Assembly: GCF_003385955.1 (NCBI RefSeq)
Contig: NZ_QRDW01000001.1
Coordinates: forward strand, 248,001-312,000
Origin: Aestuariispira insulae
Lineage (GTDB): Bacteria; Pseudomonadota; Alphaproteobacteria; UBA8366; Aestuariispiraceae
DNA: 64,000 nt
Direction: 5' to 3'
Below, one piece after another: positions 1,633 through 29,767 of this stretch; positions within the stretch are counted from its first letter, which is position 1; each line of letters opens with the position of its first letter. The translations under genes were made by a program, and so were the position numbers. The notes under the pieces were generated by a model that saw only the letters and a list, made by a program, of their open reading frames with translations, was not told the origin of the DNA and ran no database searches.

Positions 1633-3219
1633 ATGAGTGAGGTTCAACAGGTATCACGCCGAAGGGGCGGAAGGCAAGCCCGCCAGGCATTGAGGGCCGC
1701 GCCAAAGACCGAGGACGCCCGTCCTGTCCGTGCTGGCCTCGATGGCGGTAGTTTTAAACCGCTGAAAGAATCGGATATCTTCCGCATTCATGAAGCAGCC
1801 TTAACCGTGCTCGAAACCGTGGGCATGGCTGATGCCCCCCCCAGCTGTATCGATTACATCACCAAGGCGGGCGGAATACTCGCTGACAATGGCCGACTGC
1901 TCTTCCCCCGTGCCCTAGTCGAAGACACCCTTGCGAAGGCTGCGCGCAAATTTGTGTTGCATGGCCAGTCGCCGGAACATGATCTGGAACCTTGGGGCAG
2001 CAAGGTCCATTTTGGCACCGCCGGTGCCGCGGTCAGCATTGTCGATCCCTTTACCAAGCAATACCGCCATTCCAACATTCAGGATCTTTACGACCTGTCC
2101 CGACTGGCGGATCGGATGGACAATATCCATTTCTTCCAGCGCATGGTTGTGCCTCGCGACCTGCCGGAACCGGCAGATATGGATTTCAACACCTGTTATG
2201 CTTCTGTCAGCGGCACGACCAAACATGTGGGATCCAGCTGGGTCAACCCGAAGCATCTGGAGAAATCACTGGAGATGCTTCACTACATCGCCGGCGGTGA
2301 GGGTAAATGGCGCGCACGCCCCTTTGTCAGCCAATCCAACTGTTTCGTGGTGCCACCGCTGAAATTCACCGAGGATGCCTGTGCCTGCCTGGAGGTTGCC
2401 GTGCGCGGCGGCATGCCGGTGCTGCTGCTTTCCGCCGGACAGGCCGGGGCCACCAGCCCAGCCGCCCTTGCAGGCTGCATCGTACAGGAAGTGGCCGAGG
2501 TCCTGGCGGGGTTGGTTTATGTTAATGCGATCAAACCGGGCCATCCGGCAATTTTCGGCACCTGGCCCTTTGTTTCCGATTTGCGCACCGGTGCTATGTC
2601 CGGTGGCTCGGGCGAGCAGGCCCTGCTTTCGGCCGCATGCGGGCAGATGGCACAATTCTACGATCTGACCGGCGGTGCGCCGGCCGGCATGACCGATTCA
2701 AAACTGCCGGATGCCCAGGGCGGCTATGAAAAAGGCTATAACCACGCGCTGGCTGCCAATTCCGGCCTCAACATGATCTATGAATCGGCCGGGATGCATG
2801 CAAGCCTTTTGGGGGCCTGTTTCGAAAGCCTGGTCATTGACAATGACTCCATCGGCGCGGTGCTGCGCACGGTTCGCGGAATCGAAATTAGCGAAGATTC
2901 GCTCTCGGTCGAGGCCATCCGCCAGGTCTGCACGCAGGGCCCCGGCCACTTCCTGGGCCATGACCAGACCCTGAGCCTGATGGAAACGGAATATGTCTAT
3001 CCACAGGTCGGGGACCGGACCAGCCCGAAGGAATGGGTTGAACAGGGTGAAACCGATGCGGTCGAAAAAGCCCATAAAAAGGTCCGGGAGGTGCTTTCCA
3101 CCCACTATCCCCGGCATATTTCCGATAAGATGGACGAGGAAATCCGGGCCAGGTTTGACATCAAGATCGACCGCGCGGACATGACCGCGGGCAATGGTCG
3201 CTGGGAGCGTTCAGCCTGA
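1633..3219 (+). CDS. trimethylamine methyltransferase (MttB) superfamily protein, non-pyrrolysine type
   Basis: The 528-residue product matches the MttB superfamily over about residues 40-505 (for example FRIHEAALTVLETVGM and the glycine-rich SGGSGEQALLSAACGQMAQF). The frame has no internal amber codon, so it belongs to the non-pyrrolysine branch, whose studied members demethylate quaternary amines such as glycine betaine by transfer to a corrinoid protein. No corrinoid-binding protein or corrinoid activator is encoded nearby. The gene is followed after 52 bp by a dimethylglycine-dehydrogenase-like flavoprotein and is preceded by a divergent LysR regulator, so a role in catabolism of a methylated amine is likely. 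The exact substrate and methyl acceptor are unknown. An arginine-rich N-terminal tail precedes the fold. Confidence 0.85.
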   Translation: MSEVQQVSRRRGGRQARQALRAAPKTEDARPVRAGLDGGSFKPLKESDIFRIHEAALTVLETVGMADAPPSCIDYITKAGGILADNGRLLFPRALVEDTLAKAARKFVLHGQSPEHDLEPWGSKVHFGTAGAAVSIVDPFTKQYRHSNIQDLYDLSRLADRMDNIHFFQRMVVPRDLPEPADMDFNTCYASVSGTTKHVGSSWVNPKHLEKSLEMLHYIAGGEGKWRARPFVSQSNCFVVPPLKFTEDACACLEVAVRGGMPVLLLSAGQAGATSPAALAGCIVQEVAEVLAGLVYVNAIKPGHPAIFGTWPFVSDLRTGAMSGGSGEQALLSAACGQMAQFYDLTGGAPAGMTDSKLPDAQGGYEKGYNHALAANSGLNMIYESAGMHASLLGACFESLVIDNDSIGAVLRTVRGIEISEDSLSVEAIRQVCTQGPGHFLGHDQTLSLMETEYVYPQVGDRTSPKEWVEQGETDAVEKAHKKVREVLSTHYPRHISDKMDEEIRARFDIKIDRADMTAGNGRWERSA

Positions 3220-15845: not shown

Positions 15846-15876
15846 AAAAGGCCAGCGCTCTAAGCGCTGGCCTTTT
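15846..15876. terminator. terminator of katG (and former terminator of tRNA-Ser)
   Basis: A 14-bp perfect stem (AAAAGGCCAGCGCT, loop CTA, AGCGCTGGCCTTTT) works on both strands. Its last five bases fall in the 29-bp repeat that bounds the island. Before insertion it would have stood directly behind the tRNA-Ser gene on the minus strand. Confidence 0.85.
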
Positions 15877-15900
15877 CGAAATCTGGCGGAGAGACCGGGA
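15872..15900. repeat. left attachment-site repeat (29 bp)
   Basis: Identical to 29739-29767. It holds the acceptor/T-arm 3' end of tRNA-Ser (17 bases, minus strand) plus 12 bases of downstream sequence. Identity ends at 15901 (A here, C in the right copy). Confidence 0.9.
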
Positions 15901-16827: not shown

Positions 16828-17757
16828 CTATACAGCCAAGTCCAAGGGTAGATCCGAGATATCCTTCAGTCTCTTCCCCTCTATCATCATATCCAGAGTA
16901 TCCAAGGATTCCTCTTTACCCAATTGCAGAAGGGTCTCCCGCAGTTCATATAGAGCAAAGTGATAAGTGCAATCCAAATCCCCAGTACCAAGTGCGAGAG
17001 AGACAATCCTGTTTGGGATGGGTTCCGCAGTCACAGCAACAATATGGGGAGTCCTCCCTTTTCTGGCTCTAATGAGATTCAACGCTTCAGTTCTCGTATT
17101 CTGAGCACGATCAGACCTCATGGTATACTTACAAGATATACTGGCATGTAAAATACTGGTCTCAGTCTCAGAATATTGGTTCTCTTTCCTTAGGACAGCT
17201 TGCTTAGCAGATGAGCCATCAACGAGTTCAGTCCTCAGATTTATCTCTGCGTCTTCTTCTGGCAAACGAGCAATGATTACATCTGGTGCAATCGCATAGC
17301 CCTCACCTAGGAACGACCGCAATTCTGTGTACTTATCCATCAGACCATTCAATTCGGACAAATGCGAGTATTGTGCGTACCTACCAATCAAGCTTTCCTT
17401 GCGGCTAGAGACTTTTTCAACAATCCACTTCCCCGGTCGCAAGTGGCTGAGTTCAAGAAAGGTTTCTCGCACAAAATCAGCACATGCGTCTTCAAACTCG
17501 TTGCCAAGCGTTTGTCCGTCCTTTTTCTTACTTCGCCTCACTAGTGGGAGATCCACTTTATCGGCTATGACCTCCGCAAGCCTGTTCGATACTTCGGCAC
17601 TAAGCTTTTGGCCAACATCTCCAAAACTGGCAATCTCTGTAATACCGCCAAGTTTTTTGTGGTTCTTCTCAGGAACAGGTGAGTAAGCAAGTGTTTCATC
17701 CTGAATCAGCTTCTTATGCAGATTGAGGCGACCAGCAGAAAACGCAGCGGAGGACAT
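16828..17757 (-). CDS. NgoMIV-like type II restriction endonuclease
   Basis: From ATG 17757 the product has 309 residues (NgoMIV itself is about 286). The strongest match is the block SISCKYTMRSDRAQNTRTEA and the following RKGRTPHIVAVTAEP, which carries the Ser-Cys-Lys part of the active site (Lys210); Asp159 in IAPDVI is the likely metal ligand and Glu88 or Glu90 in LGNEFED the outer glutamate. NgoMIV-family enzymes cut GCCGGC and act as tetramers that need two sites; specificity here is inferred from the family. The start codon follows the methyltransferase stop by one base (TAA-T-ATG), which would place the nuclease after the protective methylase in time. Confidence 0.88.
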   Translation of the reverse strand: MSSAAFSAGRLNLHKKLIQDETLAYSPVPEKNHKKLGGITEIASFGDVGQKLSAEVSNRLAEVIADKVDLPLVRRSKKKDGQTLGNEFEDACADFVRETFLELSHLRPGKWIVEKVSSRKESLIGRYAQYSHLSELNGLMDKYTELRSFLGEGYAIAPDVIIARLPEEDAEINLRTELVDGSSAKQAVLRKENQYSETETSILHASISCKYTMRSDRAQNTRTEALNLIRARKGRTPHIVAVTAEPIPNRIVSLALGTGDLDCTYHFALYELRETLLQLGKEESLDTLDMMIEGKRLKDISDLPLDLAV

Positions 17758-17758
17758 A

Positions 17759-18799
17759 TTATTCGGCAGCCTCAACAAAGTAATCGGTATCAACATTAAT
17801 CTTCGAAAGGACCGACTTTATTTGTCTTCCTACAGCTTCCGCAACGGGAGGCGGAAAAGCGTTACCAATCTGTCGATAAGCATGGGTCTTAGAACCAGCG
17901 AACTCCCAATAGTCTGGGAAACCTTGCAGTCTGGCCACCATTCTAAGTGTGAGGAGAGGCATATTTTCATGTCCCTCCCTGATAGTCCCATCTTTCGACA
18001 GTACGCCACGGAAGGATTTATCAGGAACCTCATCGTTCTTACCAATACGATGACCGTTAACGTGCATTGAGTGCCACTTCCGCTTTGCTCTTGTTGGTCC
18101 CAAATCAGGACCGCCATGCTTCTTAGAGCCACCGACGATAGTTGGAGCAACATCATTTGCTAGGCTCGCCCAATTTGCGGCGCCTTCCCACCCCTTAGAC
18201 TCCATCAAATCTAACAAGGTTTCTCCAACTGATTTTGGTTTTTCCTTAGAATGTTCAGGCCACTCGAACAACGGGAAGTATTGCTTAGGTAAAGCAACTA
18301 ATACAGCACGAGGACGCAATTGAGATACACCGAAGTCACTAGCTTGTAATTCCGCCCACTCAGACTCATACCCAAGGGACAGTAGCCTTGCTTTAAGCTC
18401 TTTTCTATAGGCTGCGAACTTAGGCTCCAATAACCCAGGTACATTCTCAAGCATAACAGCAGTTGGACGAACGATCTCCACCAGCTTCAACGCCGCAGGG
18501 AACAAATCTCGCTCGTCATCTCCGCCCAGTTGCTTCCCAGCCTTACTGAAAGGTGGACAAGGAACACCGCCAGCAACCAAGTCTATCTGACCACGATAGC
18601 TCTCAGCCTGCTTCTCTACAAACTCTTCCAGATCCCCACAGATAACTTCACCCCAGTTCAGCTTATGGGTACGATTGTTATTCTCAAGAGTTTCACAAGC
18701 ATGACGATCATTCTCTACCAACACAACATGTTCTGCTCCGGCCATGTGCAGCCCAATCGCTTGCCCGCCAGCTCCAGCACAAATCTCTATGGTTCTCAT
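17759..18799 (-). CDS. DNA (cytosine-5) methyltransferase, partner of the NgoMIV-like nuclease
   Basis: ATG 18799 is chosen because GGAG lies five bases upstream and the protein then begins directly with motif I (TIEICAGAGGQAIGLHMAG). The 346-residue enzyme has motif IV GGVPCPPFS with catalytic Cys81, motif VI ENV (119-121), motif VIII Q160-LR and motif X IGNAFPPPVA near the C terminus. The target-recognition region lies between about 185 and 280. It would methylate the site cut by the nuclease encoded one base downstream, predicted GCCGGC by family. It is the first gene of the three-gene operon. Confidence 0.93.
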   Translation of the reverse strand: MRTIEICAGAGGQAIGLHMAGAEHVVLVENDRHACETLENNNRTHKLNWGEVICGDLEEFVEKQAESYRGQIDLVAGGVPCPPFSKAGKQLGGDDERDLFPAALKLVEIVRPTAVMLENVPGLLEPKFAAYRKELKARLLSLGYESEWAELQASDFGVSQLRPRAVLVALPKQYFPLFEWPEHSKEKPKSVGETLLDLMESKGWEGAANWASLANDVAPTIVGGSKKHGGPDLGPTRAKRKWHSMHVNGHRIGKNDEVPDKSFRGVLSKDGTIREGHENMPLLTLRMVARLQGFPDYWEFAGSKTHAYRQIGNAFPPPVAEAVGRQIKSVLSKINVDTDYFVEAAE

Positions 18800-19104
18800 G
18801 ATGACTCCAAGCAAAAATCGTTACTTTAAGAAAGATCGCACCCTGCGAATTACAGGTCAGATTACTATGTGAAAATCAATATACGGTAGGTAACAATCAT
18901 AAGAAACACTAAAAATAGGTCTAAAGATCGAGACCAATCAGTCTTGGCGGACACTCGAGGAAACAATCCAGTCGAGCCGCCCCTTTCACAAACTTACGTA
19001 ACACAATAAGGCTGCACGCCAAATCTGTTCACGGTTTGTTTCCAAGTTCAATACGGTACAATAAACTCTTACATAATCCAAGCTGTATTCGCTATCGTAT
19101 TAGC
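18800..19104. other. gene-free AT-rich stretch upstream of the restriction-modification operon
   Basis: These 305 bp hold the leader of the methyltransferase operon (minus strand) and the 3' flank of the AbiC-like gene. The sequence is AT-rich with several TATA-like runs (for example TATATT near 18884 on the minus strand), but I cannot fix a promoter. No controller-protein box is recognisable and no open frame of note is present. Confidence 0.5.
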
Positions 19105-19947
19105 CTAGACCCCATCAACCCTGCGAACACTAATACTCGTCGGAGCTTCTGACTTCAGCTTTGAAGAGATACCCAGCGGAACAACCTCATACTTTTCCAC
19201 CAAACTCGACAATTCTGGAAATGAGTTATTATAGCTCAACACACCTTCGATCAGGCCCGCCTCTTGCGCAGACAGCTTAGAACTAACCAAATCGGCGTAG
19301 AGTTGCTTGCCCGCAACATCACTGTTCTCAATGAAAGAGAGTATCTTCTGGAACTGCTTAAAATACGGAAGCAGGTCATTCATTGCGTAAGACCAAAACT
19401 GATTGAACCTAGCAAGTTCCTCCACTTCGATATCACTGGGCGCGTTGGCGGGAATTTTTTCATGCATAACATCATCAAAGTATTGCCTGTAAACCTTGAT
19501 ACACTCTCGGCCCAAATACTTCGAATGTTTGTATGTCGCTTGCATCGAATCGATGGTATCGCTGTGGAAACGTAACATCTGAAAGAAAGTGGCTTCGAAG
19601 TTCTGCTGTTGAGAGGCTTCAACTTGACGGGCCATTTCCTCGCGAGACAGCATTAACTCCTTTCGAGTTAGTGCAAGTTCTTCTCTTTGATATCCAAGCT
19701 CCTGTTTTTGCAACAATATCGTATAAACGATTCCGACAAAAGCGAGTCCTGAGAATAGAGAATTGAGTATCCCAAAGCTGTCACCAAACAGCCCCGCCTT
19801 TCCGATATCATCAAATACCCACGCGCGCTCTCCAAAGATCAACGCAAATGCGTAACCAAGTATTAGGCATAATACAAATGCTACAGCAACTAGAACTAAG
19901 ACGTTCAAACTACTGCGTCTTGGCACTTCGTTCGGCGTTATCGTCAT
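19105..19947 (-). CDS. putative phage abortive infection protein (AbiC-like family)
   Basis: The 280-residue protein has two N-terminal membrane helices (about 15-37 and 58-80) around the family signature LFGDSFGILNSLFSGLAFVG, followed by a coiled coil (about 82-115, with repeated LTRKEL/LSREEM) and a helical cytosolic domain starting FEATFFQMLRFHSD. This layout matches the widespread AbiC-like 'putative phage abortive infection' family, whose mechanism is largely unknown. It lies within the defence half of the island, between the restriction-modification operon and a small exported protein gene 33 bp upstream. Confidence 0.82.
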   Translation of the reverse strand: MTITPNEVPRRSSLNVLVLVAVAFVLCLILGYAFALIFGERAWVFDDIGKAGLFGDSFGILNSLFSGLAFVGIVYTILLQKQELGYQREELALTRKELMLSREEMARQVEASQQQNFEATFFQMLRFHSDTIDSMQATYKHSKYLGRECIKVYRQYFDDVMHEKIPANAPSDIEVEELARFNQFWSYAMNDLLPYFKQFQKILSFIENSDVAGKQLYADLVSSKLSAQEAGLIEGVLSYNNSFPELSSLVEKYEVVPLGISSKLKSEAPTSISVRRVDGV

Positions 19948-22688: not shown

Positions 22689-22736
22689 ATGCCCCTTACG
22701 ACAAACCAATCAGATGGCCGTCCAGTCATCCACTAA
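22689..22736 (+). CDS. 15-codon leader reading frame overlapping the polymerase-like gene start
   Basis: ATG 22689 has the best ribosome site of the region (AAGGA, five bases upstream). It encodes 15 residues and ends with TAA at 22734, overlapping the polymerase-like ATG at 22714, which itself lacks a ribosome site. This arrangement is like the short leader peptides that couple translation of plasmid replication proteins. Whether the peptide has its own role is unknown. Confidence 0.4.
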   Translation: MPLTTNQSDGRPVIH

Positions 22737-24153
22737 TCCCAGTCAACAAACCTCCCCATACTGCCCGTCACTTTCCGACCGCCTCATACCGCCCAAAGCT
22801 GAGTATAACTATCAGGTCAGCACCGGTCTGGGCCGCGACCTTCACACATTCCAAGCAGTCAAACACCTCGGATGGAATGAGCCGTCCGTCACGAATGAGA
22901 TACATTTCCTAACCTTCCCTGATGGACCACCAAAGCGTTACCGCCAGAAATACGAACATGCAGTCCAGCTAGTCCTCTACAACTGCTTCTGTATCCACGT
23001 CCATGAACAACGATCAGGCAAAGAAACCTTGGCACTGATCAGCAGGCACAAAGCCTCATGCAAGATGGCCTCAGAATACCGCTCCAACGATATCGGACAT
23101 CCGGTTTTAATGAAGGTGCTAGACCGATTGGAAGACCTGAGGTTCATACAACAGAACATCGGCACCAGATCAGCTCTCCATGCCCATGGGATATCCAGCA
23201 GTTTCGGACTTACAGATAGATCTCGGGACTGGCTGAACCGGAACGGCAACCTATTCACTTGCGGGCGTTTCACGCACAATACCGAGTTGATCCGCTTGAA
23301 AGAAACCAAGGCGGAAGCGAGGAACAGAGGTACCGGTCCAGAGATACAGCTGTACATTCCTTATCAAGATCGGTCACACCCAACAGTCAGACTGAAACGA
23401 CAGGCAGTAAAGTCACTTAACCGGATCAATAGCCAGCATGTCTTCACTTACAGGCCATGCCTTCAACGCCGGTACGAATGGGATGGACTGAACCGTATCA
23501 GGCATGCTCACTTCTCCGCCTGCTATCACACGGTCCCGACAGAACAGATCCAATACCACAGGGTCTTTCATGGGAACTTCCAGCAGACCGGCAGGTTCCA
23601 CTGTGATGCTCAGGGCCTCATGAAGGAAGAACGTGAGACTCTTCTGATCGACGGCCTGCCTACCGTTGAGCTGGACTTCAAGAGCCTCCACCCTCGCATG
23701 CTTTATCACCTTCAAGGATTGGATGCCCCTGAGGACTGTCACCAAGCCAATGGTGATTACCCTCGTGAGGTCATCAAGGGTCTGTGCATGAGGGTCTTGA
23801 ATACCACCGACAGATCAGCCTGCATCAAGTCCATAGACAAGATGTTCACTGAGGAGTTCGACGGGGTACTGAAGGGGCAATACAACCCCAAACAGCTCTT
23901 GTCCGACTATGAGGACTTCCATGAGCCGATAAGAAACCTGTTCTATTCCGAGCAATGGTTAAGGCTTCAGCACCTCGATAGCGTCATGGCTCAGAAGATC
24001 ATGTCAGCCTTCACCCGAAGAGGACTTCCCATTCTGGGCATTCATGACAGCTTCATCGTCCAGGACCGCTATGAAGAGGACCTTAGAAGGGAGATGTCCC
24101 TTGCCTATCAATCCATCCTACAGAGGGAACCTTTGATCACACCGTATAGATAG
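22714..24153 (+). CDS. compact family-A-polymerase-like replication protein
   Basis: The 479-residue protein has no standard annotation that I know. Its C-terminal third carries three motifs in the order of family A polymerases. Motif A is VELDFKSLHPRMLY with Asp321. Motif B is R351-x3-K355 (REVIKGLCMRVLN). Motif C is GIHDSFIV with His444-Asp445, preceded by a helix LDSVMAQKIMSAFTRRG. The HDS form of motif C resembles single-subunit RNA polymerases, whereas DNA polymerases usually have HDE. Spacings are shorter than in Klenow. The block VFHGNFQQTGRF upstream of motif A is conserved in uncharacterised mobile-element proteins as I recall. The N-terminal 250 residues are basic, without known domain. 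RNase HI lies 188 bp downstream, which supports a role in priming or replicating the excised element. Confidence 0.7.
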   Translation: MAVQSSTNPSQQTSPYCPSLSDRLIPPKAEYNYQVSTGLGRDLHTFQAVKHLGWNEPSVTNEIHFLTFPDGPPKRYRQKYEHAVQLVLYNCFCIHVHEQRSGKETLALISRHKASCKMASEYRSNDIGHPVLMKVLDRLEDLRFIQQNIGTRSALHAHGISSSFGLTDRSRDWLNRNGNLFTCGRFTHNTELIRLKETKAEARNRGTGPEIQLYIPYQDRSHPTVRLKRQAVKSLNRINSQHVFTYRPCLQRRYEWDGLNRIRHAHFSACYHTVPTEQIQYHRVFHGNFQQTGRFHCDAQGLMKEERETLLIDGLPTVELDFKSLHPRMLYHLQGLDAPEDCHQANGDYPREVIKGLCMRVLNTTDRSACIKSIDKMFTEEFDGVLKGQYNPKQLLSDYEDFHEPIRNLFYSEQWLRLQHLDSVMAQKIMSAFTRRGLPILGIHDSFIVQDRYEEDLRREMSLAYQSILQREPLITPYR

Positions 24154-24853: not shown

Positions 24854-25744
24854 CTAGCCCTTCTTGAGGTTATTCCTCCGGTTCAGTCGGTTGATTGCAT
24901 CAAGATACAAACTTCCGTGGATCTTTGCGTACTTGGCGGTCTGCTCCAGAGTTTTATGACCCATTAGTTCCTGAATTACCTTGATGTGAACATTCTCCCG
25001 GACCAATCTTGTAGCAAATGTATGGCGGCAGGCGTGAAGCACAAACTCCTTGTCTCCAGACAGCCTAAGAGCTTTTCGGCCTTCATCCCATTTGTATCGA
25101 ACAGCCGTCTTGAGCATACCGAAGATCTTCCCATCTCTAGCCCGATCTAACTTCCTACGGAGCAAAGCCTCTTTGGCGCGGTCAGTTGTTGGAAGTGACC
25201 TTGAGATCGAGTTCTTTGTTCTCCATAGGTGGAGAAAACCGTGTTCATCATAATGGTTCCATTTCAATCTAAGGAGTTCACTTCGTCGCATACCGGTATC
25301 AAGGGCAAGGATTACGAAATCGTGCATCTCTTCCCAGCCCATATCGAGGAAGTAGGTTAACAGCCATTTTTCCTCTTCGTCGGTCAGCCAGCGAAGACGT
25401 TCCTGATTGGGCTTGAAATGGGTGAACTTTGGCAGCTTTTCGATGTATCCTCGCGCCTCAGCAAACTTAAGCGCCACATTCAGTGCGCATTGCTTCTTGT
25501 TAATGGTACCTCCGCAGTTCCCTTTCTTGCGCCAATGGACCACTAACCGGTCAATGGTTTCAGTATCTATATCAGCGACGGGAAAGTCTGGGCCAAGCAC
25601 ATCAATTATTTCTAGCCAATAGCTTTGAACGGTAACCTCTGAAGCCTTTCCGGCCCATATCATGGCAATAGACCTCTCCATCAACTGTCTGAGCGTCATT
25701 GAACGAGGCATTGAAGGCGGCATAGCCAACACGGTAACGGACAT
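24854..25744 (-). CDS. tyrosine recombinase (internal, second copy in the island)
   Basis: The 296-residue product is a complete phage-integrase family recombinase. The SAM-like core-binding domain spans about 18-110, the catalytic domain about 115-285. Catalytic residues are Arg153 (DTGMRRSEL), Lys177 (RTKNS), His237 and Arg240 (HACRHTFATR), His263 (MGHKT) and Tyr272 (AKYAKI). It differs from the tRNA-proximal integrase in size and sequence. It may mark an older element nested in the island, or a dimer-resolution recombinase for the circular form. It converges on rnhA and reads away from a 580-bp non-coding region. Confidence 0.92.
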   Translation of the reverse strand: MSVTVLAMPPSMPRSMTLRQLMERSIAMIWAGKASEVTVQSYWLEIIDVLGPDFPVADIDTETIDRLVVHWRKKGNCGGTINKKQCALNVALKFAEARGYIEKLPKFTHFKPNQERLRWLTDEEEKWLLTYFLDMGWEEMHDFVILALDTGMRRSELLRLKWNHYDEHGFLHLWRTKNSISRSLPTTDRAKEALLRRKLDRARDGKIFGMLKTAVRYKWDEGRKALRLSGDKEFVLHACRHTFATRLVRENVHIKVIQELMGHKTLEQTAKYAKIHGSLYLDAINRLNRRNNLKKG

Positions 25745-26019
25745 CTTTGTCTCCTAACTACAATGAAATACCGAGGAAACACCGCCTTCATCCCAACCAG
25801 CAGTGTTACCCCCAAGGAATACCCAAGAGGCAACACCCCAATTGACTATCAGCTTACTTCCAGGCCCATACCTTTGGCCCAGCAGCACTCCCAGCGGCCC
25901 ACCTTGAGCCACAGCATCTTAAAGGGGGTAATCGCCAATTCGAACGAATAGAGCTGAATGGAAATTGGGCTCATGTCTTCCTCACTTTCTGTGTTTGTCG
26001 CCTTGTTAAGAGCGAATAT

Positions 26020-26104
26020 GACCGGGAGTTAACAACATGGTCACAGAGCCATGCCCTTACGCCTTTGGGTTTAAACCTTGGACATATGCGTAAGGCTCCC
26101 GGTC
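26020..26104. ncRNA. 85-nt three-way-junction structure (candidate structured RNA or origin)
   Basis: A closing stem of nine perfect pairs (GACCGGGAG 26020-26028 with CTCCCGGTC 26096-26104) encloses two perfect hairpins: CATGG/CCATG (26036-26053, 8-nt loop) and CCTTACGC/GCGTAAGG (26055-26095). The second stacks on the closing stem without an unpaired base. Its loop contains the palindrome GGTTTAAACC (26068-26077). All 22 base pairs are Watson-Crick, so the fold is possible on either strand or as extruded DNA. Type is uncertain: ncRNA, single-strand origin, or DNA recognition site. Confidence 0.45.
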
Positions 26105-26215
26105 GATAACTGACATGAATGAAAAACTGTCTGTGATCGGTTTGCTAAGCCCGCCAAGACCGGACCATAAAGCCATCCAAAATCACGAGTCAATTCAATT
26201 AAGTGTTTGATATTG

Positions 26216-26325: not shown

Positions 26326-26802
26326 TTGAACAACAACCTACATATCCGCATCGCACTCCCTGAAGATGCGTTCCAACTCGCTCCCAATCTCCGGGAAGCA
26401 GACAAACAAGAAGTCATCACCTCAACAGGCAAAGATCCATTGAAGGTTATCCAGGAGTCCCTAGAGATCTCCTCAGAGGCATACTCAATCGTTAGCCCTG
26501 AAGGTCAGGTGATCGGTATCTTTGGCCTCTGTGCCGTCCCTGATGGCTCTCTGGGTATCCCCTGGCTACTAGCCTCTCCTGAGATCCTCAAACATCGACG
26601 TCATTTCCTGAGTGAGTGCCGGGGCTGGATCGAACGGTTCCAAGACAAGCATAATGTCCTGGCCAACTGTGTTGATGCCCGAAACACTATCAGCATTCGG
26701 TGGCTTGAATGGTGTGGCTTCCAAAAGGTTCAAACCCATCAGTCATGGGGCCTGAGCAACCTACCATTCCATGAATACGCAAAGGTTCGCGCCCATGTGT
26801 GA
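26326..26802 (+). CDS. T7 gp13-like internal virion protein (DUF2833, GNAT-like fold)
   Basis: The 158-residue product matches the DUF2833 family of podoviruses, the group of T7 gp13 (internal virion protein A). The signature is VIGIFGLCAVPDGSLGIPWLLAS, with ILKHRRHFLSECRGWI and CVDARNTISIRWLEWCGF further on, the pattern of an acetyltransferase-like fold. The start codon in the frame is a TTG (26326) just after AAAGAACTTGAA. In T7-like phages this gene lies before the gp14 gene, as here. No other virion genes accompany the pair. Confidence 0.82.
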   Translation: MNNNLHIRIALPEDAFQLAPNLREADKQEVITSTGKDPLKVIQESLEISSEAYSIVSPEGQVIGIFGLCAVPDGSLGIPWLLASPEILKHRRHFLSECRGWIERFQDKHNVLANCVDARNTISIRWLEWCGFQKVQTHQSWGLSNLPFHEYAKVRAHV

Positions 26803-27403
26803 AGCCTCTTCACTGTTCGCGGCCTCCCTGGCTCTCTCTGCTGCGACGTCAGCGGTCAGTTATTCAGCCCAGAAGCAACAGACCGATGCGATTAACGCCC
26901 AGAAGGCATACAACAGGGAACAGTCCACCAAGAACTACAACTCCAAGATAGCCCAGTTGCAGGCCCAAGAGATCGAGGCTCAGGACGCGGCCTTGGTGGA
27001 CAAGATGCAGAACAAGACGATGACCCTTCAAGAACAAGCATCCGCTGAGGTTGCCGCCCTAGAGTCTGGTGCCGGTGGGTCGGTCTATGATGTCCTCATG
27101 GCAGACTTCGACCGCTCAATGGGTAACTTCGACCGTATGACAGACGCGAACGTCCAACGAGAGGTCCTGGGTCTTCAGAACCAGAAAGAAGCCGCCTATG
27201 CCCAACACCAGTCCGAATACATGGCTAACGCTCCGGTTTCTGGACCGTCTGCCGCTGGTGCAGTCCTTCAAGTCGCTGTTGATGGGTTTGGGGCATACAA
27301 CCAATACCTCAAGGCTCCGACCAAGAAGACCACTAGCACGTTGACCGGCTCCCAGAAGAAATACGGGGTTGGTTACGGACATCATGGTGAGATGGGGTTC
27401 TAA
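26795..27403 (+). CDS. T7 gp14-like internal virion protein B
   Basis: ATG 26795 overlaps the end of the gp13-like gene by 8 bp, the compact spacing of phage genes. The 202-residue product starts MCEASSLFAASLALSAATSA, a short hydrophobic segment after Met-Cys as in T7 gp14, followed by a long helical, glutamine- and alanine-rich region (about 25-150) and a C-terminal lysine/threonine/glycine tail. T7 gp14 is ejected with gp15 and gp16 to build the DNA-ejection channel in the host envelope. No gp15 or gp16 relatives are present, so the protein might act with a helper phage or be a remnant. Assignment rests on layout and gene order more than identity. Confidence 0.65.
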   Translation: MCEASSLFAASLALSAATSAVSYSAQKQQTDAINAQKAYNREQSTKNYNSKIAQLQAQEIEAQDAALVDKMQNKTMTLQEQASAEVAALESGAGGSVYDVLMADFDRSMGNFDRMTDANVQREVLGLQNQKEAAYAQHQSEYMANAPVSGPSAAGAVLQVAVDGFGAYNQYLKAPTKKTTSTLTGSQKKYGVGYGHHGEMGF

Positions 27404-29697: not shown

Positions 29698-29743
29698 AAA
29701 AAAGCCCCGGAAACCAGCTAGTTACTGACTTCACAGGGCTTTT
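29698..29743 (-). terminator. element-borne replacement terminator for tRNA-Ser
   Basis: On the minus strand AAAAGCCC and GGGCTTTT (8 bp, 28-nt loop) end in six T's, directly after the tRNA gene. The proximal arm includes bases of the 29-bp repeat; the rest is island DNA. It takes over the task of the native terminator now stranded at 15846-15876. Confidence 0.6.
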
Positions 29744-29767
29744 CGAAATCTGGCGGAGAGACCGGGA
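29739..29767. repeat. right attachment-site repeat (29 bp), overlapping tRNA-Ser 3' end
   Basis: Identical to 15872-15900. Bases 29751-29767 are the final 17 bases of the tRNA gene including encoded CCA. Confidence 0.9.

Follow-up and report, generated by a model that had tools for sequence, protein, structure and literature searches.

The stretch of Aestuariispira insulae DNA analysed here (64,000 nucleotides; the window) contains an island that lies between two copies of a 29-bp repeat from the 3' end of tRNA-Ser (15872-15900 and 29739-29767). The island encodes an NgoMIV-type restriction enzyme with a C5 methylase (16828-18814), a putAbiC protein (19105-19947), a serine invertase and two tyrosine recombinases, and the only T7-like virion genes seen in it are gp13 and gp14. 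An earlier sequence-only reading of the window had also described a replication module, for which our analysis extended to an RNase H. A 479-aa protein encoded at 22714-24153 belongs to phrog_4756 (function unknown), and its C-terminal half resembles by eye the palm of a family A DNA polymerase (VELDFKSLHPRML ... GLPILGIHDSFIV). Outside the island, a match to Rfam PYLIS_3 (the mttB pyrrolysine insertion sequence; 54.9 bits) is found at 2689-2788, within an open 528-aa ORF (1633-3219).

The element of interest lies in the gap between a leftward recombinase, which ends at 25744, and a rightward gp13-like ORF that starts at 26326. The sequence-only reading had placed it beside virion genes, and these were identified as T7 gp13-like and gp14-like genes, both rightward, at 26326-27403. 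It had also called the gap the island's only long non-coding region; apart from one 62-aa mechanical ORF, the ORFs in it are indeed all shorter than 60 aa, but they include a 41-codon ORF on the minus strand that is preceded by a Shine-Dalgarno sequence. Protein family searches gave no family match for this small ORF. The recombinase starts 104 nt past the stop of the 41-codon ORF and has its own Shine-Dalgarno sequence. Coordinates are collected in Table 1.

Positions 26020-26104 fold with 22 Watson-Crick pairs in three perfect stems around a three-way junction: a closing stem of 9 bp, a smaller hairpin of 5 bp (with one additional G-U pair on the plus strand), and an 8-bp hairpin that sits flush on the closing stem. 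Folded as RNA, the minimum free energy (MFE) is -36.3 kcal/mol for the plus strand (z -4.9) and -36.5 for the minus strand (z -4.5), with none of 200 shuffles as good for either strand; folded as DNA, the z-score is -4.5. The three stems are thus where they had been proposed, and far better than in shuffled sequence. A palindrome that had been pointed out in the loop, GGTTTAAACC, is present in the window, but the corresponding part of the relatives described below is a short apical stem of the form GGC-tetraloop-GCC with no conserved palindrome. The conserved part of the element is the internal loop AUGUCCARGG...CCYAAAGG (minus strand) around this apical hairpin.

Table 1. Features of the element and its surroundings (coordinates are those of the window)
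Feature	Position	Strand	Basis or remark
Probable C4/CI-type antisense RNA, 85 nt	26020..26104	-	R2 82.6 bits, E 4e-19; R1 matches to relatives; covariation
Closing stem P1	26104-26096/26028-26020	-	
P2, internal loop AUAUGUCCAA...CAAAG, apical GG...CC	26095-26088/26062-26055	-	
P3	26053-26049/26040-26036	-	
Guide a' UUGUUAA, junction P3/P1	26029..26035	-	complementary to a2 exactly, to a1 with one G-U
Guide b' UCUGUGA, P3 loop	26041..26047	-	pairs with b1 (7 nt) and b2 (6 nt)
Upstream target a1 UUAGCAA	26142..26148	-	inverted repeat I2
Upstream target b1 UCACAGA	26130..26136	-	inverted repeat I2
Downstream target a2 UUAACAA	26003..26009	-	10 nt past the RNA, as in L205, L206, L218 and L241
Downstream target b2 CACAGA	25988..25993	-	just ahead of the Shine-Dalgarno sequence
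Shine-Dalgarno GAGGA of the 41-codon ORF	25979..25983	-	read directly
41-codon ORF MSPISIQLYSFELAITPFKMLWLKVGRWECCWAKGMGLEVS, in the position of P1 icd	25849..25974 (stop 25849-25851)	-	no family match
XerC/D-like tyrosine recombinase, 296 aa	24854..25744	-	Pfam Phage_integrase 1e-20; NCBIfam XerA/C/D below cut-off
Candidate sigma-70 promoter TTGACT-18-TATGGT, upstream of a1	26164..26193	-	one found, 0.8 expected by chance; weak alone

Relatives were sought by several routes. A DNA search of 98 related genomes with a 221-nt region containing the element returned that region alone, and phages gave nothing meaningful; protein searches of viral contigs with gp13 and gp14 gave no matches, and tblastn against phages returned only a distant gp13. 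R1, a covariance model with the window copy as its sole input, finds a single copy in its own genome. Of 58 other genomes, two carry relatives that R1 detects, seven in all, with E-values between 2.2e-10 and 1.4e-4. Changes in the stems of these relatives are compensated by double changes, and the loop is conserved (CCUUU(A/G)GG...CCYUGGACAU on the plus strand). Viral contigs were searched with the apical-loop pattern ATGTCCARGG-N(4-7)-CCYAAAGG (minus strand), which selects on the loop and not on the stems. It matched 119 stretches; the spacing is 6 nt in nearly all of these, and the full three-stem fold surrounds the pattern in most, for a total of about 90 copies in viral contigs; an earlier pattern built on P1 and P2 of the plus strand had been dropped, as the matches listed looked like chance. 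Among named phages the apical motif is well matched only in two Caudoviricetes assemblies of one sample, and none of the plasmids searched for it matched. A second covariance model (R2), made from 33 copies with the window copy among them, was run at an E-value of 1e-4 on genomes sampled from the window's class, where 47 of 385 carry copies, and from its phylum, where 40 of 299 do. By comparison, C4 (RF01695) was found in two of 190 genomes at an E-value of 0.01.

We aligned 91 copies using R2. Paired cells make up 94.7% of the stem positions, compensatory double changes are seen in 20 of the 24 pairs, and the covariation score is 0.709, compared with 0.064-0.097 when the partners are slid and 0.169 when shuffled; the alignment is fitted to R2 and leans towards structure, albeit with a large margin over the controls. 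The covariation anticipated by the sequence-only reading is present, and the loss of stems in homologues, which it had set as its own refutation, is not what we find, the stems being kept across the relatives. No Rfam 15 family matches the element at its gathering score, and it is well supported that the element belongs to an uncatalogued and widespread RNA family.

Both strands fold equally well in the window alone, and the assignment of the strand therefore depends on the family. On the minus strand, G-U cells exceed A-C cells by 212 to 30 in the covariance model alignment and by 90 to 17 in a structure-free MAFFT alignment, and the MFE is lower on the minus strand in 32 of 33 copies. Because of this excess of G-U over A-C and the greater stability of the minus strand, the functional RNA is the minus strand of the window. 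It is very improbable that the plus-strand RNA is the functional one, or that the fold acts as single-stranded DNA, either as a recombination site for the adjoining tyrosine recombinase or as an origin. The recombinase does adjoin the element and the DNA fold is also stable, but quite apart from the strand signal the element is absent from the loci of all 64 recombinase relatives. Moreover, a simple motif test on the 91 copies, with some loci incomplete, detected a tyrosine-recombinase signature in the 2.5 kb downstream of the window copy and of no other. A start codon with a Shine-Dalgarno sequence follows most copies at a distance of 24-64 nt (45 nt in the window), which is unexpected for an att site or an origin. 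Four roles had been suggested for the fold from the sequence alone, and of these the regulatory RNA stands; a folded single-strand recombination site, a replication origin and a packaging signal are without support, and were rejected because the element is absent at the 64 recombinase relatives, precedes start codons and carries an RNA-like strand signal.

Antirepressor domains occur in up to 34 of 61 proteins encoded downstream of the copies (ORF6N in 12, Rha in eight, P22_AR_N in seven and Bro-N in seven), while the window's target is the unmatched 41-codon ORF and not an antirepressor. Four copies in one genome (L208-L211) and one in a related genome (L342) precede paralogous genes of about 100 aa that share NALAHVNPE.AV.FLRKTHG and have no known domain.

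Two unpaired segments of the RNA, the 7-nt junction (a') and the loop of P3 (b'), have complements in the flanking sequence. In most copies a' has an upstream complement, usually in a hairpin loop, and often a second one about 10 nt downstream; b' has complements on both sides of the RNA, with the downstream one at the ribosome-binding site. All four complements are present in the window, although the b2 pairing is only 6 nt and lies beside the Shine-Dalgarno sequence rather than over it. The a' and b' segments vary between copies, and the pairing is therefore testable by swapping guides; matches with a score of at least 7 in a copy's own flanks were compared with those obtained with swapped guides. 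For a', an upstream match is found with 85% of own guides and 8% of swapped ones, and a downstream match with 42% and 2%; the corresponding figures for b' are 81% and 20% upstream, and 65% and 10% downstream. The guide-target matches thus covary across copies. For the window itself, three of 3000 flank shuffles reproduce the four pairings together at the strength seen. Unconstrained duplex energies of the RNA with a1b1 or a2b2 are the same as with shuffled targets, and we have given these no weight.

This arrangement is that of the C4 RNA of phages P1 and P7 (RF01695; target motif c4-a1b1, RF03163), in which a closing stem leads to a tetraloop hairpin and a second hairpin whose loop is b', with the 7-nt a' in the junction. 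The window RNA shares this three-stem layout, with a' as the unpaired junction and b' as the loop of its second hairpin. In both the window and the family, a' and b' have complementary targets on either side: a1 and b1 upstream, and a2 and b2 at the ribosome-binding site of the ORF that follows. The annotated order in phage P1 (a1, b1, C4, a2, b2, icd, ant) is also the plan of the window, with a small ORF followed by an effector gene, and among the relatives of the window RNA most identified targets are antirepressors, which is also what C4 controls. There are nonetheless clear differences: the window family has the AUGUCCARGG...CCYAAAGG internal loop, its closing stem is 9 bp as opposed to 17 bp in C4, and the effector in P1 is ant, whereas the window target leads to a recombinase. 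The C4 model (RF01695, at least 45 bits) has no match in the window or its own genome and matches none of 18 viral loci, and R2 in turn does not match P1, P7 or the RF01695 loci L373-L376. As far as sequence can tell, the window RNA would work like C4 and CI, although the match to the C4 family failed in both directions. In C4, the b' loop covers ribosome-binding sites, a' provides specificity, and RNase P cuts the RNA from a longer transcript (PMC5320573); the processed C4 is about 77 nt long.

The CI RNA of satellite phage P4 brings about premature termination, pairing with seqA on its upstream side and with seqC on its downstream side (PMC4825925), and shares with the window RNA this guide-target plan of upstream and downstream pairing. 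It differs in controlling replication genes by way of premature termination, and R2 has no match in P4, such that likeness in sequence and structure is lacking. In the P4 immunity region (L332; minus strand, ~8700-8301) a' is TTCTCAC, with GTGAGAA on both sides, and b' is CCTGTGAA, whose counterparts are TTCACAGG on the upstream side and TTCACAGGAGG at the ribosome-binding site. P22 sar and the Gifsy-1 RNAs IsrK and STnc1160 are likewise prophage regulatory RNAs, and they control antirepressor-type or related genes (PMC12197685, PMC4825925). However, IsrK has been likened to the seqA part and not to CI (PMC4825925), and P22 sar is a separate antisense RNA; all three were compared with the window RNA by description.

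The nearest Rfam entry is sRNA-Xcc1 of Xanthomonas campestris (RF02221), which has the same fold in the same register but differs in its internal loop (AUACAAUA...GGAAUA, as against AUGUCCARGG...CCYAAAGG). At permissive E-values, Rfam gives only weak sRNA-Xcc1 and c4-a1b1 matches among the relatives. Many of the R2 loci are scored by the RF02221 model, albeit below its threshold (<53 bits), and R2 matches six of ten RF02221 loci at an E-value of 0.006 or better; loci common to the two models, consistent with a superfamily relation, include G052:C21:425, G156:C16:80674, G061:C58:4391 and G057:C5:349666. The window copy itself has no match to RF02221 (53-bit threshold) even at an E-value of 10. 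The RF02221 loci carry a1 and b1, and often a2 and b2. In L363-L372 the targets are complementary to the locus's own junction and loop; in L363, for example, a' (GTTTCTAG) is matched by CTAGAAA, and b' (CCTGTG) by CACAGG in the ribosome-binding site CACAGGAGG. To judge by these complements, sRNA-Xcc1 looks like an antisense RNA of the C4 type. It is reported to lie next to symE in integron cassettes, and its regulation of symE has been described as open (PMC12444791).

We conclude that the minus strand of the element very probably encodes a small antisense RNA of C4/CI-type architecture, and probable C4/CI-type action, that would silence the transcript carrying the 41-codon ORF and the recombinase. 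The strand, the targets on either side of the RNA and the ORF predicted to be silenced go beyond what the sequence-only reading had noted. The C4/CI-type mechanism class is well supported. What the sequence shows directly is the fold, its covariation and strand, the complementarity of guides and targets, their placement relative to the ribosome-binding site, and the gene order; that the element is transcribed, that the RNA is processed and represses, and that its effect extends to the recombinase is what we infer, as follows. A leftward transcript would begin at about 26157, from a promoter near 26193-26164, and its leader would run a1, b1, RNA, a2, b2, small ORF and recombinase. The folded RNA would probably be excised from this leader, leaving the junction segment a' and the P3 loop segment b' exposed, and these would pair, in trans or in cis, with a2 and b2 beside the ribosome-binding site as well as with a1 and b1 upstream. 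With a' as the anchor, b' would block ribosome binding at the 41-codon ORF, and the untranslated ORF could then give rise to polarity or premature termination and reduce expression of the recombinase. There is a precedent in phage P1, where C4 stops the translation of icd and Rho then ends transcription ahead of ant.

A different account, which we regard as unlikely although it deserves to be taken seriously, is that the element is a cis-acting attenuator only, the nascent RNA pairing with a1 and b1 and so deciding whether transcription stops or continues into the ORF and recombinase, without any RNA acting in trans. P4 CI works by premature termination (PMC4825925), and the a1 and b1 matches are the most constant of the four. 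Copies are also found ahead of bacterial genes, including those for OMP barrels, a glycosyltransferase and DUF4268 proteins, among others (L340, L341, L348, L350, L351, L338-L346). These copies keep a1 and b1 but mostly lack a2 and b2, and in several (among L340, L341, L348, L350 and L351) a U-rich, terminator-like stretch follows; this suggests that the copies at bacterial genes may be a cis attenuator form. The window, however, does have a2, placed exactly at +10 as is usual, and b2 ahead of the Shine-Dalgarno sequence, and no terminator was found between the RNA and the 41-codon ORF, nor between that ORF and the recombinase. The compact closed fold, furthermore, resembles RNAs that are known to be excised, such as P1 C4.

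Somewhat less probable again is that the element is a relic, once the C4-type immunity RNA of a T7-like prophage that has since lost its antirepressor, and now without function. The survival of only two T7-like virion genes in the island would fit with this, as would the 41-codon ORF without relatives found and the single copy in the genome. Against decay, all of the stems are perfect, the guides have kept their complementarity to the targets (perfect for a2, with one G-U for a1), and the recombinase retains, by reading, its catalytic R...HxxR...H...Y residues.

An antisense RNA of the C4/CI type is the reading that we prefer for the window, and a broader one can be offered tentatively, at slightly less than an even chance: that the family as a whole is a large, uncatalogued one of C4/CI type with sRNA-Xcc1 as a neighbouring branch, and that it has shifted from silencing phage antirepressors to the control of other genes, namely a site-specific recombinase in this island with its defence genes, and elsewhere bacterial genes such as those for outer-membrane proteins and glycosyltransferases. 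The silencing model offers a mechanism that can be tested for an RNA family absent from Rfam, and predicts how sRNA-Xcc1 would act on symE. It also suggests that many uncharacterised prophages may run a C4/CI-like RNA immunity switch, the specificity of which would reside in two short guides that can be read from the sequence.
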